From: a virus
Virus record (IMG/VR): IMGVR_UViG_3300020193_001056
Location: 1-21,091 of that record
Reading direction: 5' to 3' (one strand)
Length of the DNA stretch: 21,091 nt
The notes under the pieces are model-generated. The model saw only the letters and a list, made by a program, of their open reading frames with translations, was not told where the DNA came from and made no database searches. The position numbers and the translations under genes are program-made. Below are positions 6,164 to 19,765 of the stretch, in pieces; position 1 is the first letter of the stretch, and each line of letters opens with the position of its first letter.

Positions 6164-7726
6164 ATGAAAATTATAATTCCAATGTCTGGTATGAGCAGCA
6201 GATTTTCTGCTGCTGGATACACTGAACCCAAATACTTAATTGAAGTAGATGGAAAAACGGTAATAGAACATATCGTAGATCTTTTTCCGAAAGATTCCGA
6301 ATTTGTTTTTATAGTAAATGATATTCATTCTAAGACTACAAATATTCAAGAAGTTTTAAATGATTTAGTTGAAAATAAAACTATTCTAAGCATACCATCT
6401 CACAAATTGGGTCCAGTTTATACGGTATCAAAAATTTTTGATATTATTGAAGATGATGAGCAAGTCATAATAAATTATTGTGATTTCTCAATGTACTGGA
6501 ATTACAATGAATTTGAGCAGTTTGTAAACGATACTCAATGTGATGGAGCAGTAGTTTGTTATACTGGATTCCATCCACATATGCTGGGTAGTGATAATTA
6601 TGCATTTTGTAAAGTAGAGGATAATAATAGAATAGTAGAAATTAGAGAAAAGCAACCATTTACAGACGATAAAATGTCTGAATTTGCATCTACTGGAACC
6701 TACTATTTTAAAAAAGGTTCTTATGTAAAAAAATATTTCCAGCAATTAATGGATGAAGATGACAATATTAATGGGGAGTATTATGTAAGTTTAATTTATA
6801 ATTTGCTTAATAACGATCAATTAAACTCTTTTGTTTTTGAAGTTCCTCACATGTTGCAGTGGGGAACTCCTTCGGACTTAGATTTTTATAGAAAGTGGTC
6901 TTCTTATAATATTAAAACTTTATTTCAAAGACCAAATGCAGTTTTAGTTGATGCTGTTACAATACTTTCTATGGCAGGTGCTGGAAGTAGATTTAAATCC
7001 GAAGGATATGATTTACCAAAACCATTCATTTCAATTAATGGAAAAAGAATGGTAGATCAAGCGGTAAGGTGTTTACCAAGAACAGATGAAGTAATATATG
7101 GATGTTTAAAGGATCATAAAGACTTAACTGATTTGGATGGAGAAATAGTTTGGATTGATGAAATTCTTCAAGGTCAGGCTTGCACTTGTGAGAAAATATT
7201 AGAAAATATTGATTCAAAATTGGCAGTTTTAATTTCTGCTTGTGATAATGGGGTTTTCTATGATCCGTTTGAATTTACTGATTTAGTAAATGATGAATCT
7301 AATGATATTATAGTCTGGAGTTATACTAAAAATTATGCCAGTAAATATAATCCAAATATGTATTCTTGGTTAGATATTGATTCTAATGGTAATATTACAA
7401 AAGTAAATGTTAAAGAATTTAAAGGAGATGATCCATTAAAGGGGAATGCTATTGTTGGAACTATGTTCTTTAGAAATAAAGAAAAGTTTATTGAACCACT
7501 AAAGAATCTTTACTCTACTAATACTACAACAAATGGAGAATATTATGTAGATAATCTAATTAATTCTGCTATTGAAATGGGATATAAAGTTAAAAACTTT
7601 ACCGTTGATGAATATATTTGTTGGGGAACTCCCAATGATTTAAAAACTTACGAATATTGGCAAAGATTTTTTGATAAAGCTGATTGGCATCCTTATGAGT
7701 ATTCAAAAGACTATTTTACCAATTGA
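6164..7726 (+). CDS. Tandem (two-domain) sugar-phosphate nucleotidyltransferase
   Basis: This 520-aa protein holds two complete NTP-transferase (GT-A-like) domains in a row. Domain 1 (about 1-245) has MSGMSSRF (7-14) and EPKY; domain 2 (about 265-515) has MAGAGSRF (270-277) and LPKPF. Both match the nucleotide-binding signature GxGxRF..PKP. Both also keep a presumed metal-binding Asp (NYCDF; SACDN), a GEYYV motif and a late WGTPxDL motif, which shows internal duplication. Members of this superfamily join NTP and a sugar-1-phosphate to make an activated sugar. The substrate is not readable from sequence. Having two diverged domains suggests two activities, or one active and one regulatory half. 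It lies between the GME and GT61 genes; the next ORF starts inside its end. Confidence 0.85.
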   Translation: MKIIIPMSGMSSRFSAAGYTEPKYLIEVDGKTVIEHIVDLFPKDSEFVFIVNDIHSKTTNIQEVLNDLVENKTILSIPSHKLGPVYTVSKIFDIIEDDEQVIINYCDFSMYWNYNEFEQFVNDTQCDGAVVCYTGFHPHMLGSDNYAFCKVEDNNRIVEIREKQPFTDDKMSEFASTGTYYFKKGSYVKKYFQQLMDEDDNINGEYYVSLIYNLLNNDQLNSFVFEVPHMLQWGTPSDLDFYRKWSSYNIKTLFQRPNAVLVDAVTILSMAGAGSRFKSEGYDLPKPFISINGKRMVDQAVRCLPRTDEVIYGCLKDHKDLTDLDGEIVWIDEILQGQACTCEKILENIDSKLAVLISACDNGVFYDPFEFTDLVNDESNDIIVWSYTKNYASKYNPNMYSWLDIDSNGNITKVNVKEFKGDDPLKGNAIVGTMFFRNKEKFIEPLKNLYSTNTTTNGEYYVDNLINSAIEMGYKVKNFTVDEYICWGTPNDLKTYEYWQRFFDKADWHPYEYSKDYFTN

Positions 7727-16866: not shown

Positions 16867-16896
16867 TTGACATAATCCTAAAGACAATGTTAAAAT
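16867..16896 (+). promoter_or_regulatory. Host-type promoter for the barrel-like protein (TTGACA - 18 bp - TAAAAT)
   Basis: A consensus -35 at 16867-16872 is followed after 18 bp by TAAAAT (one mismatch to TATAAT) at 16891-16896. Predicted start is about 16903, leaving a leader of about 47 bases that begins with a hairpin. It separates the next gene from the glycan operon. Confidence 0.65.
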
Positions 16897-16902
16897 GAAC
16901 AC

Positions 16903-16919
16903 AGTCTCAAACAGAGACT
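16903..16919 (+). other. 5' leader hairpin
   Basis: AGTCTC and GAGACT form a perfect 6-bp stem around AAACA. It coincides with the predicted first bases of the transcript from the promoter at 16867-16896, a place where hairpins often protect mRNA from 5' decay. That role is inferred. Confidence 0.4.
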
Positions 16920-16949
16920 AGTAAACTTAAATATGGGTTGAACAAACTT

Positions 16950-17399
16950 ATGAAATCGATTATTCTTGCTACAACTGCTGCCGTTTTTGCTGGAAGTTCC
17001 GCATTTGCTGCTGGACTTGAAGGTTCTTATGTGGGTCCTGGAATTGCTGTAGGGACTACTCCTGATGCTTCTGCTGCAGCATCTATTGTAGGTCGTGTAG
17101 AGGCAGGCAATCTTCCTCTTTCTATTCGTCCTCAAGTGACTGTAAATACTCAGGTTGAAGGTGCTATTGGTGCTACCTATGATCTGGCTGTTGCAGAAAA
17201 CACCAATGTTTATCTGGGCGGCGGTGCTGCTTTCGGTGATGCAGGTATTCTTACCGTTGATAATGACACCGTTGGATATATTCAAGTTGGTGCCGAAACT
17301 CAACTGGCAGAACATTCCGTTATTTTTGCTGATGTGAAGGTTGCTCTAACTGATGGAACTTCTGTCGTTCCTACTGTTGGTCTTGCCTGGAAGTTCTGA
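16950..17399 (+). CDS. Secreted small outer-membrane beta-barrel-like protein
   Basis: This 149-aa protein has a clear Sec signal peptide: MK, a hydrophobic core and an AFA|A-type cleavage site after about residue 20. The mature part (about 129 aa) is made of alternating polar and non-polar strands (for example IRPQVTVNTQV, AIGATYDLAV, NVYLGGGAAFG, IFADVKVAL) broken by Gly/Asp/Asn turns. It ends in VGLAWKF, matching the terminal aromatic signature read by the outer-membrane assembly machinery. This suggests a small 6-8-strand barrel in the outer membrane of the host. ATG 16950 was chosen; an in-frame TTG at 16938 would add four residues. It has its own promoter and terminator. A function in surface change or exclusion of other phages is inference. 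Confidence 0.7.
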   Translation: MKSIILATTAAVFAGSSAFAAGLEGSYVGPGIAVGTTPDASAAASIVGRVEAGNLPLSIRPQVTVNTQVEGAIGATYDLAVAENTNVYLGGGAAFGDAGILTVDNDTVGYIQVGAETQLAEHSVIFADVKVALTDGTSVVPTVGLAWKF

Positions 17400-17415
17400 T
17401 CTTCTAACAAACTAA

Positions 17416-17429
17416 GTATCATATGATAC
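17416..17429. repeat. 14-bp perfect palindrome
   Basis: GTATCATATGATAC reads the same on both strands. It lies between the stop of the barrel-like gene and its terminator stem, and about 11 bases before the -35 of the hli promoter. It could be a dimeric regulator site or just extend the terminator structure. Confidence 0.4.
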
Positions 17430-17430
17430 A

Positions 17431-17458
17431 GAGAGGGGCTTGACCCCTCTTTCTTTTT
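17431..17458 (+). terminator. Intrinsic terminator overlapping the hli promoter
   Basis: AGAGGGG (17432-17438) pairs with CCCCTCT (17444-17450) around CTTGA and is followed by TTCTTTTT. Strong G-C stem plus T-rich tail. The loop and descending arm carry the TTGACC -35 box of the next promoter. Confidence 0.85.
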
Positions 17459-17468
17459 GCTATATACT
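17440..17468 (+). promoter_or_regulatory. Promoter embedded in the terminator (TTGACC - 17 bp - TATACT), for hli
   Basis: The -35 TTGACC at 17440-17445 lies within the terminator loop/stem; the -10 TATACT is at 17463-17468 just after the T-run; spacer 17 bp. Predicted start is about 17475, about 22 bases before the hli ATG. Confidence 0.7.
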
Positions 17469-19139: not shown

Positions 19140-19765
19140 ATGACCCTAGCTCTTCATAACTTTTTTAAGTATTATGATGATAGCAATTCGAATCATGTTG
19201 CAGCGGTCCAATGGTTAGAAGACAATCTTCCCGCTCAATTCCTTGATGATTCTGAGACTGATTGGATTGAGATTTTTAGAACTAAACCCCCTACACCAGC
19301 AGTTCTAGCAGTTCCATATTTCAATCAAGTAGATAACTACAGAGATGCACATAGAACTTGCAACTCTTCATCGTGCGCTATGTGTCTTGCGTTCCTCAAG
19401 CCAGGAAGCATTAAAGGTGATGACGAATACGTTAAGAAAGTATTTGCGATTGGCGATACTACTGACCATGCGGTACAGACGAAGGTTCTTGCAGGTTATG
19501 GAGTTAAGTCACACTTTAGTTACAATCTTTCTTTTAATGATATTGATAAAAGTCTTGACGCTGGGAAACCTGTTGTTATTGGTATCCTTCACAGGGGTTC
19601 TCTCCAGATGGTAAAGGATACTTTATTAATGATCCATATGGTTCTCTCAATGATAACTATACTGGTCCTGTGACAAACGGTAAGAAGACCGTTTACACTA
19701 AAGCAGTTCTTAAGCACCGCTGGTGCCCAGGTGGCAACGATGGTTGGGGCAGAATTTTCGATTGA
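19140..19765 (+). pseudogene. C39-peptidase-like cell-wall hydrolase, broken by an internal deletion/frameshift
   Basis: The first frame (19140 to about 19600) encodes an N-terminal module (residues about 4-48, LHNFFKYYDD..) shared with the lysozyme downstream. It is followed by a C39_2-type peptidase domain with VPYFNQVDN (Q63) and the presumed catalytic C74 in RTCNSSSC, up to VVIGILHRGS. The frame then shifts: the expected continuation DGKGYFINDPYGSLND..WGRIFD is encoded in another frame from about 19601 to the TGA at 19763-19765. The part in between that should hold the catalytic His (a GGHW-like motif) is missing, so about 15-20 codons seem to have been lost together with frame. Read straight, the first frame ends at 19673 after a nonsense hydrophobic tail. 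Either a decayed gene or an assembly error. Confidence 0.75.

Follow-up and report, generated by a model that had tools for sequence, protein, structure and literature searches.

A predicted eight-stranded outer-membrane barrel protein in the Phage_OMP slot of a T4-like cyanophage

The DNA analyzed here, an IMG/VR virus record of 21,091 nucleotides referred to as the window, derives from a T4-like cyanophage. Among annotated matches, Synechococcus phage DSL-LC02 is the best by covered length, and DSL-LC03 shares the part running from hli to lysozyme. The window encodes a talC transaldolase, gnd, three tRNAs and a long glycan operon whose last gene encodes a GT25 glycosyltransferase. As the sequence-only reading had noted, the gene for a putative outer-membrane protein (OMP) follows this operon, with the GT25 gene directly preceding it; hli, ferredoxin, peroxiredoxin and lysozyme genes lie on its 3′ side. 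Elsewhere in the window, a single open reading frame at 6164-7726 apparently contains two tandem nucleotidyltransferase-like halves, with MSGMSSRF... and MAGAGSRF... motifs.

The OMP gene appears to form a monocistronic unit (16867-17458, + strand, as are its parts and the hli promoter described below) composed of promoter, 5′ hairpin, coding sequence and terminator. The putative sigma-70-type promoter TTGACA-18-TAAAAT (16867-16896) agrees with the consensus at 11 of 12 bases and carries a TG before the −10 hexamer. Promoter-like matches are not rarer than chance in the region (6 found versus 4.9 expected), so the better evidence is conservation in L003, an IMG/VR relative encoding an 88%-identical protein, where both hexamers are kept as TTGACA-17-TAAAAT. 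A 5′-terminal leader hairpin, AGTCTC-loop-GAGACT (16903-16919), lies at the predicted +1; its stem is kept and its loop changed in L003, with folding z values of about −2.3 for the window and −2.0 for L003. Just 5′ of the start codon, the leader contains a two-codon mini-ORF, ATG GGT TGA (ATGGGTTGA, 16933-16941), which is likewise conserved in L003. Downstream of the gene, a predicted intrinsic terminator with a 9 bp stem (17430-17452) is followed by a U-rich tract to about 17458 and folds with a z of −3.3 in the window; the stem sequence differs in L003 and DSL-LC02, but the terminator is kept in both. The host-type promoter, leader hairpin and terminator originally proposed for this gene are all present and kept in L003.

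Comparison with L003 also set the start of the coding sequence, which spans 16950-17399 with its stop codon and encodes 149 amino acids. An upstream TTG at 16938 was rejected because its frame meets a stop in L003, leaving ATG 16950 as the start. The first 20 residues (16950-17009) constitute a predicted signal peptide, MKSIILATTAAVFAGSSAFA|A, with cleavage at AFA|A, which aligns in two homologues. The mature protein of 129 residues (17010-17396) ends in PTVGLAWKF, giving a C-terminal V-x-L-x-W-x-F pattern with a final W-K-F. A terminal F was otherwise seen in the hli product alone among the 26 genes of the window that were checked. An amphipathic eight-strand parse as good as the best one was reached by 6/500 shuffles of the window protein, 2/500 of the L003 protein and 0/500 of the homologue from phage S-CBWM1, and cytoplasmic control proteins showed no excess over shuffles in the same score. 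The signal peptide, strand pattern and terminal Phe from which a barrel was first proposed are therefore all present, the strand parse exceeding that of shuffled sequences.

Close relatives are few. At 88% identity the gene is present in six contigs of IMG/VR, and in L003, which we checked in detail, the slot is identical to that of the window (GT25, OMP, hli, ferredoxin). Next in similarity comes gp38 of S-CBWM1 (ATW62722.1, A0A3G1L3F6), a complete 139-kb phage, with 47-49% identity over the whole protein. S-CBWM1 gp38 shares the predicted fold of the window protein but differs in its neighborhood, having neither glycan genes nor hli beside it. Searches of phage records, viral contigs and bacterial genomes yielded no further members of this family, and a search seeded with S-CBWM1 gp38 added none. 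A search for host homologues, as recommended by the sequence-only reading, gave none in a scan of the genome collection. Four matches at E ≤ 0.01 among 400 Cyanobiaceae genomes are regarded as chance, the loci that were opened encoding other, conserved genes and no OMP frame with a signal peptide, and a match in RCC307 was rejected on the same grounds. In L002, one of the related contigs, a different hli allele stands behind the same OMP gene, unlike in L001 and L003, as though recombination had taken place at the OMP/hli junction. We also observed a predicted tmRNA in S-CBWM1 (L007:6015-6332, tag ANKIVAFHRQAVSCA) that is unannotated in the record.

The earlier proposal of a small barrel, for which a closed form of 6-8 strands was named as the thing to look for, agrees with structure prediction. 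Using an alignment of 14 mature sequences (three family members and eleven Phage_OMP proteins, discussed below), AlphaFold2 returned eight strands with a pLDDT of 88.3 and a pTM of 0.81, and confidence was likewise high in the stretch covered by the three family members only (84, 86 and 93 in successive blocks). Foldseek matched this model to OmpA, designed transmembrane barrels, Ail, NspA, OprF and OmpX; the OmpA match had an E value of 2e-5 and a probability of 1.0, for a model whose alignment included Phage_OMP sequences. The best viral match was S-CBWM1 gp38 (E 1.4e-11, TM 0.87), in a model made independently for BFVD. By Foldseek, the OmpA transmembrane domain, OmpX, Ail and the OprF N-terminal barrel have the same eight-stranded fold, whereas their sequences are only 9-16% identical to the window protein with no family-level match. 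Searches at the sequence level gave nothing informative: solved structures returned only a spurious acyl-carrier synthase match, and the Ail/Lom and OMP_b-brl Pfam families did not match the window protein at E ≤ 1.

The distribution of residues in the model points the same way. Nine charged strand residues face inward and none outward, a split that is partly built in, as sides were assigned by hydrophobicity; conservation was not used in the assignment, and invariant residues make up 30 of 45 lumen-facing versus 17 of 47 lipid-facing positions (p = 0.003, from three sequences only). In the model, a conserved polar interior and a variable hydrophobic exterior fit a membrane barrel and not a soluble sandwich. 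A periplasmic beta-sandwich that merely resembles a barrel would be in keeping with the uninformative model obtained from the three family sequences alone (pLDDT 33), but a soluble core would show the opposite of this polar lumen and hydrophobic outside, and both the C-terminal V-x-L-x-W-x-F signature and the independent prediction of S-CBWM1 gp38 as a barrel make such a fold very improbable. The window protein is thus predicted to be an eight-stranded barrel of the OmpA/OmpX type.

The Phage_OMP family, Pfam PF24653 ('Cyanophage outer membrane protein like beta barrel domain'), is identical to phrog_417, DUF680, PhCOG173 and T4-GC 241. Its relatives occur in at least 451 IMG/VR places and in 452 phage records, which are named Synechococcus, Prochlorococcus or cyanophage except for four marine or uncultured entries. 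Small outer-membrane barrels, present in about 450 records of the searched collection, are among the commonest uncharacterized accessory genes of cyanophages. The window and L003 proteins score 13.9 and 15.8 bits against the PF24653 profile, below the curated cut-off of 27 bits; a score of 12.2 bits is attained by 1 of 5000 shuffles. Pairwise or small-profile comparison of the window protein with Phage_OMP gave no significant match, and hhalign of the window family against Phage_OMP gave 3.7% with 12 sequences and 47% (global) with 55. Both proteins come from cyanophage genomes, have a signal peptide, end in F (55/55 Phage_OMP members examined) and are all-beta. They differ in mature length, 129 residues for the window protein versus about 100 for Phage_OMP, a difference that MAFFT places as one extra hairpin in the former. 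Taken at the sequence level, homology between the two is no more than suggestive.

Phage_OMP and the window gene also share a genomic position, the slot between GT25 and hli, and a fused terminator/promoter on the 3′ side of the gene. In DSL-LC02, exactly the slot of the window gene is occupied by a true PF24653 member (2.4e-26). No PF24653 match at E ≤ 1 turned up in the complete genome of S-CBWM1, and three large contigs (G001-G003) match PF24653 weakly, at their window-type OMP gene and nowhere else; the simplest reading is therefore that the window gene replaces Phage_OMP in that slot, or represents its extreme divergence. The window protein belongs, as a divergent version, to a class of cyanophage proteins that is common and already carries a name. 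That barrels so different in sequence occupy one slot argues for selection of an outer-membrane barrel in general at this position, and not of one particular sequence. In DSL-LC02, a tRNA-Ala gene replaces the leader hairpin between promoter and Phage_OMP gene (L017:415-487).

Matches to PF24653 above the cut-off were also found in 32 of 400 Cyanobiaceae genomes, some being phage contigs in bins and others proteins of about 320 amino acids. One picocyanobacterium genome bin holds an apparent cyanophage contig (L205) with a capsid-like protein, psbA and Phage_OMP. Picocyanobacterial proteins of about 260-360 amino acids (L211-L214 and others) contain PF24653-like segments, some with two matches per frame, and are possible host relatives of Phage_OMP.

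The second shared feature is an unusual junction. A candidate hli promoter, TTGACC-17-TATACT (17440-17468), has its −35 element inside the OMP terminator hairpin, so that the fused element as a whole covers 17430-17468, with TTGAC in the hairpin and the −10 element 17 nt later. At such an element, one transcript would stop and the following one start within about 40 bases. The arrangement recurs in L001, L002, L017, L021, L023, L040, L041, L053, L059, L086 and L110. Of 55 distinct Phage_OMP genes, 9 are followed by a fusion of this kind, versus 0 of 1100 dinucleotide shuffles, and a wider scan gave 31 versus 0, for loci that overlap. Stems vary among these elements while TTGAC and the −10 are constant, and the gene that follows is usually hli. 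A scan of 100 kb from elsewhere in DSL-LC02 gave one further example. The fusion is a recurrent, non-random arrangement. A search for literature on terminator/promoter overlap in cyanophages found nothing relevant, which is weak evidence of absence.

Proximity of OMP and glycan genes is recurrent but not obligatory. Among 98 Phage_OMP loci in IMG/VR, 20 place the gene between GT25 on the upstream side and hli on the downstream side, within 1.2 kb, and in 15 it lies directly upstream of pstS; nrdC is another frequent neighbor and psbA a further alternative. Phage_OMP lies directly upstream of pstS in P-SSM2, S-SSM5, S-SCSM1 and S-8S55. These alternative neighbors, together with the S-CBWM1 gene, show that the glycan link can be dispensed with, and they weaken the earlier suggestion that the barrel acts jointly with the glycan operon.

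We favor, at a probability of roughly 0.6, an explanation in which the window gene is an accessory gene for an exported outer-membrane barrel that remodels the envelope of the infected cell, filling the slot and role of Phage_OMP. Host-type RNA polymerase would transcribe the gene, and the 5′-terminal hairpin may stabilize the message. We infer that Sec would export the protein with removal of the 20-aa signal peptide, and that the host Omp85 machinery would insert it into the host's outer membrane during infection, where the closed barrel would alter the outer surface or stability of the infected cell. A conserved network of charged residues (R49, R60, E70, D78, E116, D128 and K130) is predicted to fill its lumen, so the barrel is probably not an open pore. 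That it fills the role of Phage_OMP, which would be envelope remodeling, is the most likely reading. In S-TIM4, Phage_OMP collected disabling mutations during passage on Synechococcus WH8102 (PMC6224464), so it is dispensable there, in a host-dependent manner.

As to the specific function, general remodeling or stabilization of the envelope during infection ranks first, although only tentatively. Lambda Lom and the phage PA-2 porin Lc are outer-membrane barrels of phage origin that modify the host surface, and enteric prophages encode outer-membrane proteins with a superinfection-exclusion effect. Lom and Lc come from enteric prophages and have no sequence match to the window protein, and the window phage belongs to a lytic T4-like group. 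By analogy, the window barrel, alone or with the new glycan, might mask or replace receptors against other phages, as the sequence-only reading proposed. The predicted fold and the recurrent position behind surface-glycan genes (the 20 of 98 loci above) favor such exclusion; the family's occurrence beside pstS, nrdC and psbA, like the S-CBWM1 copy without adjoining glycan genes, speaks against it. We consider exclusion a fair but unlikely hypothesis, second in rank.

A role in uptake of phosphate or another solute by the infected cell would suit the pstS adjacency described above and the co-enrichment of Phage_OMP with pstS at BATS (PMC3686209); a phosphate-limitation function has also been suggested for DUF680/PhCOG173, as cited in PMC6224464. 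The window copy, however, is not near pstS, its leader has no clear Pho box on inspection by eye, and a barrel of eight strands whose interior is charged and filled is not likely to form a pore, so we rate a nutrient role as rather improbable. Carriage of the protein into the particle appears improbable to a similar or slightly greater degree. The sequence-only reading placed the mature protein in the host outer membrane and counted its presence in virions as contrary evidence, and for the window family itself there is no report of virion presence; yet S-SZBM1_90 (L019), a Phage_OMP relative, was detected in S-SZBM1 particles by LC-MS with 2 peptides (PMC9146016). Membrane vesicles in lysates could account for that detection, and a virion component would sit poorly with a signal peptide, an outer-membrane fold and a host-type rather than late promoter, or with a homologue called nonstructural in PMC6224464. 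A function other than remodeling, exclusion, nutrient uptake or virion structure seems less likely still.

Beyond the envelope-remodeling reading, lytic cyanophages might carry an exchangeable OMP cassette, consisting of host-type promoter, OMP gene and a terminator joined to the promoter of the following gene, at a constant position bounded by the surface-glycan operon and photosynthesis genes, with different barrels swapped so as to re-coat the cell in step with the new glycan. We regard this as a speculative and doubtful extension; if true, cassette swapping would provide something like superinfection immunity types for lytic phages.

Farther downstream in the window, a C39-peptidase-like open reading frame (19140-19673) encodes 177 amino acids versus 223 in L003, and its C-terminal sequence departs abruptly near 19600, the pattern that a frameshift or an assembly error would leave.
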